Shown piece by piece: positions 14,180 to 63,921 of a DNA stretch of 64,000 bases. Within the stretch, counting starts at the first letter, position 1, and each line of letters starts with the position of its first letter. A program made the position numbers and the translations under genes. The notes under the pieces are model-generated. The model saw only the letters and a list, made by a program, of their open reading frames with translations, was not told the DNA's origin and did not search any database. This DNA is from Plumapathes pennacea (taxonomy: Eukaryota > Cnidaria > Anthozoa > Antipatharia > Myriopathidae): contig OZ038465.1 of the NCBI GenBank assembly GCA_964036295.1, forward strand, positions 248,001 to 312,000, read 5' to 3'.

Positions 14180-16142
14180 ATTATCATTTTTATTTTTACA
14201 TTGATCAGTGCATCATTTAAACTCGCGAGTATTGAAATAGTAATTAGAAGGCAACATTAGTTTGAATTGTTTATTACCCAGTGTAAACACTTTGCATTTT
14301 GAATCCAACTTCTCATCCCTAAACGCTATTTGTGTTACACTAAGTTTAGCTCGAGAACGTGAACAAAAAGGACACCAGTTATTTATAATTGCAATATTTA
14401 CCTGGACACCCATCCCGCGAGTTGTGTACATGTTTTGTAAACAAGGTGGCTGTAAAACCAAAACAAAGCCCGGCCAAAACCAAAGTTCTAAACAGTGACT
14501 GATTAGTAGCTGATTTCGTTGTGAAAAATTCACGTAAACCATCAGCGACCTTGTGCACGTGACAGTTTTCCGATATCGGCCTTCACAGGTCAAGTTCATT
14601 GACGCAACGTAAGAATTCTCCAACAGGAAGTTAGGACAAGTATTGTAAACAGTGCTGTGCGTTGATGTCTTCCTTTGACATAACTGCCAGTTTTGAATCG
14701 AGATTCTAAAGTACATCGCTCGGTTGATCATATTATTATTTTGTGACGGACAATACCTTTTCTGTGTTTTTAAATAGTTCTTTTTTTGGTCTTGGTTGTT
14801 TCTAGGTATTTCTACAGAATGCAAATGATGGGATTATACAATTGTTGTAGATGAAACACAAAGAGCGAGCTGGCAGTGTACGTGCAAGTTTAGTATTACG
14901 TAGTCTCGAAAATGAAAAGTGTCATCATTGGATGTTGACTCGGCTCATAACTGTCCTTAGACCGGCCATCGCGCATGTACTAATCAGCGGTTACTCCAAA
15001 CATAAGTATAACCGCGACTAAACAAATTTTCCGCATAGAAACCAATCATGTTGAGCCAGTAGTGAAGAAGTCTAGTGTCGAGCCTACAGACATAAGAATT
15101 AACAGAGCTGTCGTGTCACGAAACAAACACTATTCTGACTATTTTATTGCATTTGCCATGGCAGGAACAGAACCGGCTTTTTTTAAGATCCCATTCGTCT
15201 GTCGACTCTCCCGTTAGTAGCGTTGTTAAATATCACTGAACATCAGATTTACTGAAGTTTAGCACTGAATGAACGGAGGCGCCGACAGGCACAGCACGTC
15301 ATTATAAACTCCTCTGGCGAACAACAGAATAATTATGTATCTCTTCCTCGCGCGAAGTAACATAAATTAACAATAAAGTACACAAATGCATTGAAACTCC
15401 GTACACAAACCAGAGTTTGCCATCCCGTGTTTAGCACTTTTAGTTTCGGGCTGTACCCAGTAACTAAGCCATGACATCATCATGTGCATGTCGCCATGTT
15501 ACATAGTTCCGGTTTTACACTAGTCCGTCGTATGCAAGTCCCAACCCAGTGGTTCCTTGGTCAAAATAACTTAAGTAACTTAGTGGTATACTAATCAGTG
15601 ATACAAGTCTCGTATAAACGACTTACGTACGAGAGTTCCCATGACTTTATACGGAAACATAAGAGGCATTTGACCGTTAAGTTTCAAATTTAATCATGCC
15701 TGACAAAATTTTAGATTGATGATAATTACAGTTTACATTGATTGCTTTTTAGTACTATCTGTGTGTGTTAATCCTGCTTTTTTCTTCGCATTTCTATTTA
15801 AGTTTACGAGTTTTCCTTGAGAGGAGAACGTCTCGCTAAAACACAAAGACAAAATCAGCTGACCATGTTCCATATAAGGAAGTCCTTTTGATCACCTAGA
15901 CTCGGAAAAACTCTTCTGTGATATAAACATATGCAAATCAGGAGCGACAATAATAAGCAGTCGTTGGTAGTGCCAGTTCTTTTTTAGTGAACAAGCCATA
16001 AAAAGTTCCAGTATTCTTGCAGTTTCACTTTTCCGTTCGTAAGGTTCAAATCTGTACGGCGGATTAATGACGATCTTAACCGTGATGCCACAACCATAGA
16101 GACCTTACTTTAAGCAAAGTGGTTGTCAACGCTGTTTCGCTC
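12656..16142. other. No gene supported; TTA microsatellite inside
   Basis: AT-rich sequence without recognisable coding exons. A 203-codon minus-strand frame (14824 down to 14213) has no known motif and is not called. Confidence 0.45.
14098..14178. repeat. ATT/ATC trinucleotide microsatellite
   Basis: About 80 bp of imperfect ATC/ATT repeats that become pure ATT on the right. It yields a spurious poly-isoleucine reading frame on the plus strand. Confidence 0.92.
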
Positions 16143-16712
16143 ATGAGTTTGAGGAAGCTGATTCGCAGAATATCGAAGGATATCGGTTTATCAGAGTCTC
16201 GGGTAGAAATTTCTTCACCGACGAATTTTGAACATCGCGTTCACGTCTTTCTAGATGACACCGGGCGATACATTGGTTTACCGCAACAGTGGGCTGATCT
16301 AATCGGAAACAAAGCCAGGAGAAAGGCCAGAAGAACTGAATCTTCTCCCGACTTACTTCTTGCTGCAAGGAGGAGAAGTTCCGCGTTGAGGCGCGCGGAA
16401 ATCACAACTGGCGGGAAACAGGACGCCGGGATGCACGGCGGACACAACGGGTACCTCGCGGGCAGTTTGGAAAACCCGCGGTCACGCAGCAGTGTGGCGG
16501 ATCACCAAGACCTTATTATTGAACGCCTTAAACTCGAGCTGAAGGACTACAAGATGAACCATCCATCTGAATTTAACAGCATGTTGGAGAACTCCTATTC
16601 GGTCGACAGGCCTTTGGCGCTGTCTCGCGAAACTCAAAACGAGGGAATCCGACATAACTTGTACCGGACAAACAACTTGGTTGCAACAAAAAAAGCCGAA
16701 TCTGCAGTGTGA
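16143..16712 (+). CDS. CRIB-domain protein, PAK4-like N-terminus without kinase (189 aa)
   Basis: An intronless 189-aa ORF from ATG 16143. Residues 20-54 hold a CRIB/p21-binding domain: ISSPTNF (23-29), H31, H34, then GLPQQW (45-50). The spacing matches the Cdc42/Rac-binding motif I-S-x-P-x(2-4)-F-x-H-x2-H-x-G, although the residue after the second His is V rather than the usual G. The surrounding RVEISSPTNFEHRVH closely resembles the extreme N-terminus of group II p21-activated kinases (PAK4/PAK6/mushroom-bodies-tiny), and a basic tract (NKARRKARR) follows as in those proteins. The rest is polar, with no kinase domain before the stop and none recognisable on the plus strand nearby. It may be a Cdc42-effector adaptor, a PAK-derived retrogene, or a first exon that splices onward before the stop. 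Confidence 0.78.
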   Translation: MSLRKLIRRISKDIGLSESRVEISSPTNFEHRVHVFLDDTGRYIGLPQQWADLIGNKARRKARRTESSPDLLLAARRRSSALRRAEITTGGKQDAGMHGGHNGYLAGSLENPRSRSSVADHQDLIIERLKLELKDYKMNHPSEFNSMLENSYSVDRPLALSRETQNEGIRHNLYRTNNLVATKKAESAV

Positions 16713-56459: not shown

Positions 56460-57011
56460 CTAGTCCGTGTAAAAAATGCCATTTGGTCGATAAAATGAAT
56501 CTCGGATTTCCCGACTCTGCCCAAACTGTGGTTTGACTGGCTTAACGCAATCATCGATCTTCCAGCCAATCTCCCATGCACTTGTTATTGGGAATTCATA
56601 TTTCTCCTCGGGTTTCTTGAATCTTCTTTGTTGCAGATATGCATAGCGGCCGCCACCCAGCGCACTGAAACCGTCGAACAACAAACCACGTGTATCTTTG
56701 GACACTGGGCGCATCTCAATCAAAAGCGACTCGGGTTCTGCCTTCGCAGCTTCCGCTACTTTCTTCTGTGCAGGCATTTTATGTGTTTTAGCGCAAGTTA
56801 CATTTGTCCCTGTCCCACTCGATTTTCGTTCCCTGGCCGATTCCTTTGGTTTGAACATCATACCTTCTTTCTTTGGTTTGGAAACGAACGAACTCCGCGA
56901 GAATTCTTTGGAGTATCTTGTGTGCCACAAAAGCCTGACCATGGCCTCTTTGCCAATGGATTCCTTCCAAAAGTTTTGCCGTTGGGTGTCCATATTTAGC
57001 TCGCGAACCAT
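56460..57011 (-). CDS. SPMIP1: SPMIP1 / ATP6V1FNB-like sperm microtubule inner protein
   Basis: A single-exon 183-aa ORF from ATG 57011. The N-terminus MVRELNMDTQRQNFWKE matches the vertebrate start (R-x-L-N-I-D-x-x-RQNFWKE). The C-terminal half has GGRYAYLQQRR, EKYEFPITSAWEIGW and a terminal SFYRPNGIF, as in SPMIP1 (FPIT, GW, SFFRKNGAF). The central region is Lys/Ala-rich and variable. The family protein sits inside axonemal doublet microtubules of sperm flagella. The frame is open upstream to 57080, but the family start and the fit of MVREL favour 57011. The absence of introns is notable because the neighbours are intron-rich. Confidence 0.85.
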   Translation of the reverse strand: MVRELNMDTQRQNFWKESIGKEAMVRLLWHTRYSKEFSRSSFVSKPKKEGMMFKPKESARERKSSGTGTNVTCAKTHKMPAQKKVAEAAKAEPESLLIEMRPVSKDTRGLLFDGFSALGGGRYAYLQQRRFKKPEEKYEFPITSAWEIGWKIDDCVKPVKPQFGQSREIRDSFYRPNGIFYTD

Positions 57012-58051
57012 CTTTAAATCCCAAGATAAACGAACAAGCTTGAGCTTCACTTCTGTTCGCAACTCTGAAGGAATGTCCACACGCAGTTACCATGGCGATC
57101 AGTTCAATTCACCCATGATGCATTGCGTGCACCGGAAGTGATGGAAACGCAAACATACACATAAAACAGCCACCATCGGGACATAAAAATCTGGCCGTGT
57201 TAACGGGGTGGCCGTATTAACGAGGGTCTTCAGATAAGAAAATGCCTGGGCGTTTGTTCCGCGGGACAAAAGATAGCGGCCGTAAGGCGGGGTTTCACCG
57301 TTGAAGCATTTTTATCAGATTATTTTCATGGGGCAGTGTCAGAGGCCTTCTTTAGGTGAATAACTATACCCCTCTCTCTAACAAGACCCTTGTCAGTATA
57401 ATGTGTACTGGTCCATCATGCACGGGCTGCTGAACACGAGACTTGATTTATTGAAAAAGGGTGTTACGTTTGTCAGCATATATCTGGCCTTTGAGAAGGT
57501 TTCATCTTCCGTGTGTGACAACATGGGCATTTTCTTAGCTCAGGGCTTACGTAGTTTCTGTTATAACGACCACGCTCAATTTCTAATACGTGATCACTAA
57601 TTCGTAATTTCGTTAGAGCTCTGCGGTGTTCTGTATTTTGAATCTCGTTTAGGTGACTCTCAAATTCGTTTTCGGTTTTGAATTCACGGTAAGTTCTTGA
57701 TTTATTCCCCCTACCGATCTGGATTCATCATTGAAAATATATGCCAGCATCTAACGAAGCCTCAGTCAACAAGTCTTTCTGGAGGCTACTCTTACCCGGA
57801 CGATCACAAGCAATTTATTTATTTAGTACATACACTCTGATAGCACTGAAAAACCCCACGACAACACAGGCAAGGCAACACAAGAGAAAGCAAATAAAAG
57901 GACAAAAATGATAGACAGTTTAATCAGACATCACCGACGAACAGACATCTGAAGCTAGAGTATTCATGGTAACTCGGCTTTGTCAAAAACGAATACGAAA
58001 ATACTGACTGCCACACTGAAAATCTAAGGAAACTTCAACGGTGCAAACTAC

Positions 58052-58111
<60 letters not shown>

Positions 58112-58234: not shown

Positions 58235-61200
58235 TCAGTGCGGTACATGGTAGTACTGCCTTCGCTGCTGGTGCTTCTGGTGAGCGGAGAAGTAGGTGAT
58301 GTAAAATTCTGACCAGCCTCCTGTGCGCACGCGCACCAGATCGTACTTCTCTGGGTTGATGACGGCCTGGGACAAAGTGTCGCCATTCACACAGGTGACT
58401 AAAACATAAGAAAGTTCTAGTCATAAAACAGATAAGAAAGTTATAGTCATACTGCAGTAAAAAAAGATTGAGATAATAGAGTAAAAAATCTGCAAGTTGG
58501 GTTCATTTTTTAGACTGAGGTGAAACGCCAGACTGCTAACTCTCCGAATCGCGTCTCCCGCTTTCCCGAGAACTCACGTCAACCTCCAGAATAAAGAGTT
58601 AAATGCATGGCGGTATCAGACGTAACGAATGTTGCTTGATTTGTGCATGTGGTGAGTTGCTTTTGTTTTTATACGTACCGGACATGATATTGCCTCCCAC
58701 GTCGGCAGTCTGGTCAGCGTACTTTCCCAGAAATGTAACCAAGTCCTGCTCGTTACAAGTTTCTTCAATCTTTATGTCGATCTCCGTGCCATTAGTAAAG
58801 TTCTCGTTGATCGATTGCTTGTTACAGCACTTGAGGGCCCTTTAGAGGTAAATGAAAGACAACACAGCAATACTTAGATATCAACCAGGACCACCGCACT
58901 AATGAAGAGTACAGACAGCGCTTCCGTGTTTGGTGCTGTACATTTGTCACTGTGCAAGAGACCAGTGAATACTACGCATAACAACATCTTATTTTTCATT
59001 AAAACTTTCACTCCGATCTGACTCACTTGTAGATGTTGTTTTTCTTCGGTGCCGCTGGTTTGTCCTGCGGGCTCGGTGCCGCACTGAAGTCTGATGCAAT
59101 AGGAGACGCTGTGCGTCTGCCGTCTGCTGATGCAGCAAGTCCCAGGCCCCAGCCTACGTAACCCTCGAAGGTTCCACTGCCCGCAGGGAGCATGATGTCC
59201 CATGGGAAGCCTGGGGCTGAGAACTTTTGCTTTAGAGACTGAATCATGTCGCTCAGCGGCTGTCCCTCCTGCCCACGCGCAACAGTCTGGATTGTGTTCG
59301 TGGCCAGGTCACCCAGCCAGCTGTGTGGGAATAAATATGTCAAACTCACAGATCACTACACACCAACATACTTCAGCCTTTGCTATAAAAATTATTCTAC
59401 AATTTTAAGACAGTGCATATGTTGATACAAAGCGGGGAGAACTGGGCACTAGCAACCTACCTGGTGAGTTCCTGGATATCTTTGTTGTCAACCGCCTCGT
59501 CGGTCCCAAATTTCGGGAGCCGCAGTGACTTCTCTCGCACATCCTTGTAGAAGTCAGACAGCCGCTGACCGTGCGTGGGCCCGGCTAGTTCATCGTGCCA
59601 AGGCTCCATCATGTTGTTTCCCCAGTCACACTTAAGACACTGCACCAAATCGGCCAGGGACAGAACGGACGAGTCGTGGTCAAAACACAGCCTCTTGATA
59701 GCGTACAGCGAGTCCACAGTGTTGGAGAAGCTGATAAACTGTACGCCAATCAAAGGATGACGGGCACCGCCTTTGGTCAAATCTCTCTTGGCCTCGATAC
59801 AGTCGTGGACGAGTGTGGAGAGCAAGGGACTGGGGCACACTTCATGCAGGTTTCCATAGTTCAACAGCAGCAGATAAATACTGTACTCCACTCGAACTCG
59901 GAAGTGTTTTTCATAAATTTCCTTCAGCTAAAAGAACATGTAAAATGTTAGAGCTGCAAACTGTAAATTATTTTTACTTCGTATTGTGCTACCAGTTGAC
60001 TGCATTATCTTTCAGGGAAGCTGAAACCGCACTCTGATGAGTCAGCAGTTTGTCCCAATTTACGCTGGGAGATTCCGCTTAAGGAACTACTTATAATATA
60101 CCTCAATACGTTAATTAAACAATCTATTCCAAATCATGGGAACAACGAACTAGGGAAGTAATGACCACTAATAATAAGTAATACTCACCTGCTTAAAGGT
60201 GTGAATGTCCTTAGCGTGTGCTGTAGGGAGGGACTGGGGTGTCCCTTCCAGAAAAGCAGGGCCACACATACTGTACGTGGAGCCATGATTTATAGTCATC
60301 TCTAACACACCCAGCATTGGCACGTAAACAAGCGAGAACTCGGTGAGGCCTGGGAAGATGGGTTCATAGCAGCCGTCACACGCATAATCACGCCTTGTCT
60401 TAATGTCCAAGGGCACATCAGGTGGACTGTCACGTGCAAAACCTGCGATCAAACGGTCGTCATGGAGAAGCAATGGGTGTGCTCCTCCGCTCAGGATACA
60501 TTTAGCAGCTTGCTTGAGAACCTGGTAAATTACGACGAGCACACAGTCAAGAAAAGCAATAAAATACTAAGATGGCCCCGATCACCACCCTGTTGGGCGA
60601 ACGATTTTTAGTACAACTGATATTAAACCTTGATGTCAAAGTCTTAGAGCGTGCAGAAATAATGGTATGACAAACTTTGCCTCAAACCAGAGATTAATTG
60701 CCATGTCATAAAGAACTGCATGTAAGTGCTTTAACACCATACCTCGCGCAAATGACTACATACTCCTAATAAGCATTCTTGCATTCGCGTCATAACCATT
60801 ATTATCTACTTCTCCACTCTTTTAATCTACACTTTGAGATTCAGGTGTCACCTCTTGAGGCATCTGCTTGTGCATCCTGAGCGACAAACATGGACCATTA
60901 ACCGGCAAACGGCGAGAGGCCTTCAGACAAAGGATGGTGACGTCATTACAGGCGTCTTGCGGTGTTGGTGTGTCTGTTGCTTTGTAACCACCCACAGTGA
61001 CCTATGAATAGGAATCAGAACTCACATAGTAACTTGAACGGATTGTAGAGACATCCTTTGGTCAGAAAGAGCAGCCCGCAACTCCAAAGACGTCGCAAAT
61101 TCACTATTTACCCAAGATCCCAACAGGCCTCTGCTCGCAGTCTTCAACTGACTGTATTTATTGACAGTCCAGTCTTTGCCTTCTTTCATCAAAGACACGG

Positions 61201-63921
61201 TCAATCACACTCTCAAGAATTTTTAACGATTACATCTTCCTGTCGTTTATCTATGCTCTGTCTATACCTATACGGAGTAATAAGCATTTCAACCCTTACC
61301 TGCTGCACCCATTGGTTGATGGAATCTCCGTTTGGGAACACCCCGGTACTAGAAAAAGGCACAGCGCATGAACCCCACGCCCCCTGGTCTTCCAGAAGTC
61401 GATTGTTTAGCAGTGTGGGCTCACCCAATTTCAGCCAGAAACAATCGATGATCTCCTGAGATTTCTCTTTCTCTTCCTCGTTGTAGAAAGGCATCAAAAT
61501 TTGGTCTAAGCGGCCGACAGAAGTCGGCTCACCAGTCAGATGCAAGCAGCAGTGAAAGGAGAAGATGAGCTGCACCGCCTCCACAAACGTGTCTGGCTTG
61601 TGTTTGCTCAGCTTTTCCATTCTCTTCCCGACCTGCATTTAAAACAGTTTTTTTTCTTCTCTATGAATTCACGTCATTTCCTGGAAACAACAGCTACACA
61701 TACGTACGTACATATTATTACATCACTAGATTTCCTTGTTCATTTTCCTGTTATCAACACATCGCTAGATTTCCTTGTTCCTTTTCCTGTTATTGATAGT
61801 GTTAATATTGCTTAATATTGATCAATGTTAATGTATCACGTTAGTCTGCATTTGATCTGACAAAGGGCTAACATTTGAAACATCACTGTCTGTACTACAT
61901 GTGTTCAGCATATACACATAAAATGCACATCAACCTTACGTTGACACATTCTACACATCAACCTTGCAACAAATCAAAATTTCTTTTTACCTCTCTCAAG
62001 TTTCTTCGCTGATCTTCGGAGTAGTTGAAGGTCTGATTGTCGGCCATGTACTTGGCAAGGTAAGCGAAGTTCTTGTGATACTTTCGGATTCCGTTTAGAG
62101 CCAAGATGCACGATGCAATGAAATCCTTCTCTGCCTTGTCTTTAGGAGAGGCGGCCACCAGATCTTTGATCAAACTCCCGATCCCTTTGCTCACCAAAGT
62201 TTGGTAGTCGGGAATTATGTGTCCGAAGGTTCCGGCTTCGCTCAGCCCTTTTACAAACGCGGGCATCACTTCTTTGTCATGCAGATACGGCATCACAATC
62301 TGACCCAGGCCTAGGGAGAAAGTTGGGGGCATCCGACCCGCCAATATGTCATCGGGGTGGATGGAGAACGTCCCTGCCCGTCGTCCATAGAAACTGTCAT
62401 CCTCAAGCTTGGCTCTGTTATTGGTGGTCAGCAGACTACCAAGGGTCTGCTTGATGGCCCAGCCCTTCCTGAGAGCCACTGAACCCACCTGGATCTCCGC
62501 TATCTTTTTTTTGTTTTTCTTACCTTTGACGTTTTGGAAGAGATGCGGCATTGGCGGCATGACCCTCTTCTTGAACCATTGGTCATTCCAGTGACAGAAC
62601 ATGTAGTCAACCAGGGTAAGCACGCGATTAGTCGGGGGGTCCTCAGGGGTGTAGCCGCCTGTAGTCATACGGTGCAGGTATTCCTTCTGGTTGTAGAACA
62701 TGTACTCGTTCGGACTGCGGACGTTCCAATGCTCATTGAAATCGAACCTGATCAATTATGCAACGAAAAGAAGAAGAAAAAGACGAAAGAAACTCACTGG
62801 CTGCCATTGGCACTGTTCAACCCATACAACCGGGCGTGCTTCGGGACACCTGACGTAAACTTCAGTCGATTCTGGGACACACTTTGTTTTTTTAAACTGT
62901 ACTACAAGTTGATAATACGTACATGCAATGCAATAAAACCTAAAGTATATGGTTATCGACAGCTTCGCCCAACTCACTTTTCTTGCACAATGGCACTAAA
63001 ACTTATGTTGTACTTGTAGATCCATACCTTCTCTCTTCGAACGTAGGAAGATTCAGCTCCTCCGCACTCGGCACGTACCACCAGGTTCCCAACTTGGGTT
63101 GCACATTGCTTAGTAACGTGTCAACAGTGACTTCGCCAGGAGCGTCTTTAGACTTTGAGCCCGCGATGCTGGTGAGTATCCGCTTGAACACCTCCGTCGT
63201 GTTGCACAGGTGCATGTACATGACACCCTGCTCTCTCCCGGGTCCGCTGCCATCCACTCCATACGGCATCGACAAGCGGAACACTCTGCTGTGCTGTGCA
63301 TTTGGGTCGATGGGCGTCACTTCCGGTATGACGTGAGCACACTTCATATGTGCACGTGAGTGCGTGAATGACATGAAGGCGTCTGACGTCATCCTTCGAC
63401 CAATCATGTCTTCCTTCTGCGTCTGTGATAGAACCAGTTGACATTGTTAGGTCAAAATGCCGTCGCGCACAAAATTCAAATGCGTTGCATAATGGGAAAA
63501 CATATATCAAACAGAGCAATGGCCGTGCAATGGCCGTGAAGGTCATGGGCTCGTTTCAAGACGGATTTTGCCGCGGGTTGTCTTTGTAATTGTTTAAGTT
63601 GCTTCAATACTACATAGATCACTTACGTACTGTCCATAAATATTCTTTCAGCTTCGTGTGTCAAGAATGTAAATCAGAAAGTGCTTATTCTCAGTCTTAA
63701 AATGCGTTTGTTTCAGTAGAGACGTTCTGTAGTATATCATAAAGTACCTGGTCCAAGCCCCCGAGAGCTACCCAGTTGAACTTGAACTTCTGCGTCAGCA
63801 GAAAGGTGGAGCCGGGGAAGCCATCTTTGCTGTCGATGTCTGCATTCACAACAGCATTCTTCAGGCTCTCAGTATCACATGGGTTGGCAAGACCGTCTTT
63901 GAACGAATTCTGAATAATGCG
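58235..63921 (-). CDS. Glycyl radical enzyme (PFL/diol-dehydratase superfamily), N-terminus outside window
   Basis: Ten phase-consistent exons give 1,075 aa plus stop: 63921-63748, 63422-63028, 62747-61991, 61632-61300, 61001-60852, 60521-60189, 59927-59461, 59320-59027, 58839-58679 and 58398-58235. Family signatures appear in order: GRLDQILMPFY in the barrel, LLNNRL, then NDVTILCLKA. The thiyl-radical cysteine is in CDGCYEP (Cys codon 60369-60371; GCVEP in the family), followed by LGVLEMTINHG. Further on come SADGRRTASPIASDFSAAPS and the C-terminal glycyl loop VRTGGWSEFY (radical Gly codon 58316-58318; family R-x-x-G-[YFW]-S). The GCxEP form places it with the dehydratase/lyase clades (glycerol, propanediol, hydroxyproline, choline TMA-lyase) rather than classical pyruvate formate-lyase, which has two adjacent Cys. 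At over 1,075 aa it exceeds the usual 750-900. Substrate unknown. All introns are GT-AG, so it is a resident nuclear gene. It would need a radical-SAM activase. Confidence 0.93.
61855..61886 (+). ncRNA. Degraded hammerhead-like core, second copy
   Basis: In the intron between exons 61632-61300 and 62747-61991 of the glycyl radical enzyme gene. CTGACAA replaces CTGACGA (the invariant G is lost), AGGGCTAAC is kept, then TTTGAAACATCA. The same family as the motif at 26561-26597, but probably inactive. Confidence 0.45.

Follow-up and report, generated by a model that had tools for sequence, protein, structure and literature searches.

The window analysed here, a 64,000-nucleotide stretch (C4:248001-312000) of an animal genome of 290 Mb in 24 contigs, carries on its minus strand an intron-rich gene whose product very likely joins a DyP-type haem peroxidase, at the N terminus, to a glycyl radical enzyme (GRE). 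We confirmed ten exons of this gene within the window, running from 63921 to 58235 with GT-AG borders, consistent phase and a joined frame without a stop codon, just as an earlier note made from the sequence alone had described them. Its account of the gene's extent was incomplete, however: three more exons lie past the window end in the adjoining 2.3 kb (L006), and the N-terminal DyP domain, two exons of which (exons 4 and 5 in the table) fell within the range given by that note, had been missed. The full model comprises 13 exons and 12 introns of 140-1495 bases, spans 8099 bases and encodes 1257 amino acids. Exons 2 and 3 are backed by DyP structural matches extending to residue 49 (9obr) and by alignment with a bacterial fusion protein from Asticcacaulis, and the gene has at least 11 introns, probably 12.

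Pfam searches of the animal protein identified a GRE domain (PF02901, E = 5.2e-88) followed by the glycine radical domain (PF01228, 24.0 bits against a cut-off of 22.2). Cys836 of the active-site motif CDGCYEP and Gly1231 of the loop motif RTGGWS fall in the alignment columns that hold the catalytic Cys and Gly in classical GREs, and the catalytic Cys, Glu and Gly are all intact, so that placement in the GRE superfamily with both catalytic motifs preserved, as first proposed from the letters, holds. In the N-terminal half, PF20628, the C-terminal domain of DyP, matches residues 188-361 (45.3 bits, cut-off 20), and the canonical DyP residues are present: proximal His265, distal Asp191 and distal Arg289. 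Counting against DyP membership, TIGR01413 scores 86.8 bits, below its cut-off of 100.5, and Dyp_perox_N is absent among the Pfam matches of the protein. An ordinary pyruvate formate-lyase (PFL) was ruled out, TIGR01255 reaching only 15 bits against a cut-off of 994.2, and the protein falls far under the cut-offs of the equivalog models for choline TMA-lyase, hydroxyproline dehydratase and sulfopropanediol dehydratase. Most members of the family described below are matched by the Pfam GRE model only from about profile position 131-154. We rejected the idea that the N-terminal part of the GRE is missing: the predicted fold of one bacterial member (L010) aligns to a solved GRE beginning at residue 2 of the latter, so this part looks diverged, not absent.

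We identified bacterial relatives in two ways. A tblastn search of plasmids returned one full-length fusion (Asticcacaulis) and one GRE adjoining a separate DyP (Hymenobacter), and a scan of bacterial genomes with two short peptide patterns, which is not exhaustive, returned 45 loci, 29 of them belonging to the same family as the animal protein (33-42% identity) and 16 being classical GREs (22-26%), all clostridial by record title. The 29 family loci span ten phyla: Cyanobacteriota, Myxococcota, Actinomycetota, Pseudomonadota, Bacteroidota, Verrucomicrobiota, Planctomycetota, Acidobacteriota, Gemmatimonadota and Thermodesulfobacteriota. A tree built on 30 family rows, the animal included, and 12 classical rows (42 in all) put all 30 DyP-linked rows on one side of a branch of length 2.64 with support 100/99. 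The animal lies inside the fused group with support 88/99, short of the program's mark; its position beside Scalindua is tentative, and the program flagged long branches for the animal row and E. coli PflB. The tree places the animal, its sole eukaryote, with bacterial fusions. Judged by sequence, the gene is of bacterial type, as that note had held, because the relatives sampled are all bacterial. Two scans of viral contigs for a carrier gave no relative. Most family relatives belong to genera that we take to be aerobic. The earlier inference that the enzyme must work under hypoxia or in a protected compartment finds no support in these presumably aerobic relatives or in an architecture already known; the evidence neither needs the hypoxia idea nor contradicts it. 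Separately, the genomes of L013 and L025 (G004 and G016) each hold a second PFL-like locus that matches the later part of the profile only, and neither genome has an activase over cut-off.

The family loci differ sharply from the classical ones in what accompanies the GRE. Across 31 family loci (29 from the genome scan and two from plasmids), a DyP is found at 30: it is fused to the GRE at 21, and of the ten loci where the GRE is separate, nine encode a DyP in the adjacent gene, and L035 ends where its DNA runs out. None of the 16 classical loci has a DyP. The separate DyPs were located from the Hymenobacter protein, and Pfam finds both DyP halves in the two that were scanned singly (L031, L033). 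Models of fused and separate DyPs do not match each other at E <= 1e-3, and the DyP lies before or after the GRE depending on the locus, which points to repeated association of DyP with GRE. The reverse distribution was seen for the activase. A locus-level activase profile built from three proteins matches at one of the 31 family loci (L017) compared with 15 of the 16 classical loci, and genome-wide the GRE activase model TIGR02494 exceeds its cut-off in 4/29 family genomes and in 16/16 classical genomes, leaving 25 family genomes with none. Each of the four exceptions has a full-length classical GRE within about 1 kb of an activase, so those activases need not act on the DyP-linked GRE. The PflA model exceeds its cut-off in two of the 29, at two of the same places as TIGR02494. 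Judged by record titles, seventeen of the family genomes are neither labelled metagenome-assembled genomes (MAGs) or uncultured nor single-cell assemblies (L032 being taken as single-cell), and two of these (L017, L022) have an activase over cut-off.

Conservation across the family was examined next to that of classical GREs. Cys836, Glu838, Arg1228 and Gly1231 are kept in 30/30 family rows and 11/11 classical rows, and all of these rows likewise share the Cys-x-Glu active-site feature of GC-x-E eliminases. The glycine loop is altered as a set: Ala is replaced by Gly1230, Tyr by Trp1232 and Ala by Glu1234, and this stretch around Gly1231 is presumably where radical S-adenosylmethionine (SAM) activases bind. 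The family thus departs from the GC-x-E eliminases (glycerol and propanediol dehydratases, CutC, PflD) in its loop, R-[MT]-G-G-W compared with their R-V-A-G-Y, in its DyP linkage and in that no activase was found next to 30 of the 31 loci. For the DyP domain, a residue table of 21 fused proteins (the animal, Asticcacaulis and 19 loci) shows the proximal His in all 21 and the distal Arg in 16, while at the distal Asp position only the animal has Asp, 15 proteins having Glu and five having His; the eight separate DyPs keep proximal His, distal Asp and distal Arg without exception. The predicted fold of a bacterial homologue is that of DyP-type peroxidases, with KpDyP, DtpB and YfeX among its structural matches, and the animal copy shares their three canonical residues. 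The fused proteins differ from those enzymes in that their DyP is not free-standing, and in the Glu or His found at the distal Asp position of most of them.

Fusions of this kind have been described. An N-terminal DyP followed by a C-terminal PFL-like domain is known from Ascomycota and Proteobacteria (Zamocky et al. 2016, PMC5041501), where a Chaetomium cochliodes DyP-PFL fusion is presented, transfer between proteobacteria and ascomycetes is claimed and the physiological function is given as unknown; Xylaria grammica g1956 is a further case (PMC8469222). With DyP then GRE on one chain, and grouping with bacterial fusions, the animal protein fits this DyP-PFL family. The DyP-GRE architecture is thus a known one, and the published DyP tree may already include animals: the legend to Fig. 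5 of PMC5041501 lists Deuterostomia and Mollusca among DyP taxa and leaves open in that legend whether these are fused, so the earlier remark that no metazoan enzyme of this type had been described was only partly fair. What sets the present gene apart from the published descriptions of fungal and bacterial fusions is its intron-rich setting in a hexacorallian-like animal. The part of PMC5041501 considered here reports a putative activase in the fungus and describes no exchange of activase for peroxidase. Our literature searches likewise found neither a peroxidase-for-activase pattern in bacterial relatives nor an activase-free GRE mechanism.

GREs are held to require anoxia and a radical-SAM partner. 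We infer, as the best single reading of the mutual exclusion of DyP and activase, that the DyP substitutes for the activase. The protein would then combine a DyP with a GC-x-E-type GRE, the peroxidase doing the job of the missing radical-SAM enzyme, a proposal based on sequence comparison to which we assign a probability of roughly 0.4. Peroxide would oxidise the DyP haem to compound I, and the oxidising equivalent would pass from the haem to the GRE domain, generating the radical at Gly1231, or at Cys836 directly. A thiyl radical might then open a small substrate by hydrogen-atom abstraction, Glu838 serving as acid/base. Both the haem-to-Gly (or Cys) transfer and the reaction type are presumed here, and the animal protein would work in the same way. 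By analogy, and a shade more tentatively, these proteins may represent a class of GREs in which a haem peroxidase, not a radical-SAM activase, does the priming; such a class would extend across at least ten bacterial phyla, would have been captured by an animal and would be the aerobic counterpart of the classical enzymes as class I is to class III ribonucleotide reductase. Those two reductases share thiyl chemistry and make their radical either oxygen-dependently or by radical SAM; the likeness is an analogy only, to the two routes of GRE priming.

Several observations weigh against the peroxidase as activator. Ten of the 29 family genomes carry the MAG label and could be incomplete. The L017 locus has a PflA-like gene 7.5 kb away from its fusion, though a classical GRE is nearer to that gene. 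TIGR02494 gives radical-SAM matches at E <= 1e-5 in 15/29 family genomes, 11 of them only below cut-off, so an activase that goes unrecognised is possible. The control loci are all clostridial, and shared descent and anaerobic life are thus confounded with the contrast, whose p value is therefore an overstatement. TIGR02494 found no activase in the animal genome, and one PflA protein had no match there in a search without a positive control; this is a weak negative, because radical-SAM searching is insensitive in that genome (three matches, one over cut-off, intron-rich genes being poorly seen). Five fused proteins (L010-L013 and L026) carry His in place of the distal Asp and Gly or Ser in place of the distal Arg; they are not canonical peroxidases and possibly perform a different haem chemistry, and the genomes of L010, L013 and L026 also lack an activase over cut-off. 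Such a subclade argues against a single peroxidase mechanism shared by all members. Its Scalindua and Desulfobacca members belong to groups that we assume to be anaerobic, and it would fit peroxide chemistry being needed only where oxygen is present.

Other explanations were weighed against these same data. An ordinary but diverged radical-SAM enzyme encoded elsewhere might activate the GRE while the peroxidase merely guards the radical by removing peroxide, which we consider unlikely. A putative PFL activase reported in fusion-bearing Chaetomium would suit this arrangement and counts against the stand-in proposal, and dyprx transcripts in that fungus increase 3-fold under hydrogen peroxide and 18.5-fold under peroxyacetic acid (PMC5041501), as might be expected of a guard. 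The sub-cut-off radical-SAM matches could supply the enzyme in bacteria. A guard role alone, however, leaves the 25 genomes without an over-cut-off activase unexplained, and it sits poorly with the activase profile being empty at 30 of 31 family loci but matched at 15 of 16 classical ones, and with a glycine loop altered at the presumed activase docking site. Less probable again is that both domains work consecutively on a metabolite, one making the other's input, with a GRE fold that may not use a glycyl radical. The bacterial surroundings have something of a small metabolic cassette: a Pfam scan of 92 neighbours found PLDc_2 in 11, a glyoxalase fold in four, and FGE-sulfatase, trypsin-like and non-specific endonuclease domains in two each, and a putative HAD-like protein is encoded next in some loci. 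Conservation of Cys836, Glu838, Gly1231 and Arg1228 in all 30 family rows is nonetheless hard to account for without radical chemistry. Bacterial contamination, misassembly or gene decay is a very improbable explanation of the animal copy. This copy is isolated, all five PF02901 matches in the animal genome being exons of this one gene, yet it has 13 exons, GT-AG introns and an unbroken frame, lies in a 27-Mb contig with SPMIP1 adjoining, and retains the key residues of both domains; a bacterial contaminant was rejected on the introns and surroundings.

A DyP-tied branch in ten phyla, mostly without an over-cut-off activase, makes peroxide priming of GRE chemistry testable, and the pattern of DyP and activase may point to how air-breathing cells could run such oxygen-sensitive chemistry. 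The animal copy indicates that the DyP-GRE combination can persist in an oxygen-breathing lineage. Even if the stand-in mechanism is wrong, the DyP-PFL fusion gains a phylogeny, a conserved residue set and a contrast with classical GREs.

Among the bacterial neighbours, the PLD-like gene was also recovered by clustering as a recurrent neighbour at 11 loci (L012:11742-13694 and ten others); a PLD protein searched for as a sign of co-transfer had no match in the animal genome, in a search without a positive control. The HAD-like name comes from the Hymenobacter record and a motif reading, and Pfam finds nothing in the single such protein scanned (L012). Near the DyP-GRE gene at two loci (L015:11897-13894 and L026:15727-17706), a trypsin-like peptidase is fused to a DNA/RNA non-specific endonuclease, and a SUMF1/FGE-like gene (L008:6561-7565) immediately precedes the Asticcacaulis plasmid fusion. 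With an anti-phage role in mind, PADLOC families were compared: PLD-like and trypsin/endonuclease neighbours match some of them weakly, and no PADLOC family matched the one fusion (L015) or the one separate DyP (L033) scanned.

Table. Exons of the DyP-GRE fusion gene and other features of the window (positions in window numbering)
Feature	Position	Strand	Remarks
Exon 1	66333-66262 (L006)	-	24 residues; predicted only
Exon 2	66117-65925 (L006)	-	DyP matches and Asticcacaulis alignment
Exon 3	64429-64149 (L006)	-	DyP matches and Asticcacaulis alignment
Exon 4	63748..63921	-	DyP domain, residues 183-240; distal Asp191; phase 0 at both ends; GT-AG
Exon 5	63028..63422	-	DyP domain, residues 241-371; proximal His265, distal Arg289
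Exon 6	61991..62747	-	Linker and start of GRE domain, residues 372-624; PF02901 from residue 536
Exon 7	61300..61632	-	GRE domain, residues 625-735
Exon 8	60852..61001	-	GRE domain, residues 736-785
Exon 9	60189..60521	-	GRE domain, residues 786-896; active-site CDGCYEP, Cys836 and Glu838
Exon 10	59461..59927	-	GRE domain, residues 897-1051
Exon 11	59027..59320	-	GRE domain, residues 1052-1149
Exon 12	58679..58839	-	Gly_radical region, residues 1150-1203
Exon 13	58235..58398	-	Glycine loop RVRTGGWSEF, Gly1231; stop codon at end
TAA-type repeat run	about 58051-58110		Just 3' of the fusion gene's stop codon
SPMIP1 exon	56460-57086	-	Pfam 9.8e-33
Open frame, 1366 aa	49062-53162	+	Reads like Ty3/gypsy gag-pol
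Open frame, 718 aa	36784-38940	+	Integrase_H2C2 and DUF5641
P21-Rho-binding domain exon	16086-16712	+	Perhaps a PAK-like kinase gene

The host can be placed from its own assembly. Contig C24 is the mitochondrial genome (17,711 bases; L063, L064), with an interrupted cox1, a LAGLIDADG open reading frame and two tRNAs at the Rfam gathering score, a set typical for hexacorallian Anthozoa, sea anemones among them; judged by this contig, the host is probably a hexacorallian cnidarian. Downstream of the fusion, the nearest gene found encodes SPMIP1 (sperm microtubule inner protein 1), whose best solved match is 8snb (163 bits), a sea-urchin structure. These mitochondrial features and the SPMIP1 and P21-Rho-binding exons in the window agree with the earlier description of an intron-rich animal gene. 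The 718-aa frame is presumably a BEL/Pao-like retroelement, and the likeness of the 1366-aa frame to gag-pol was read by inspection. A run of TAA-type repeats follows the fusion gene directly.

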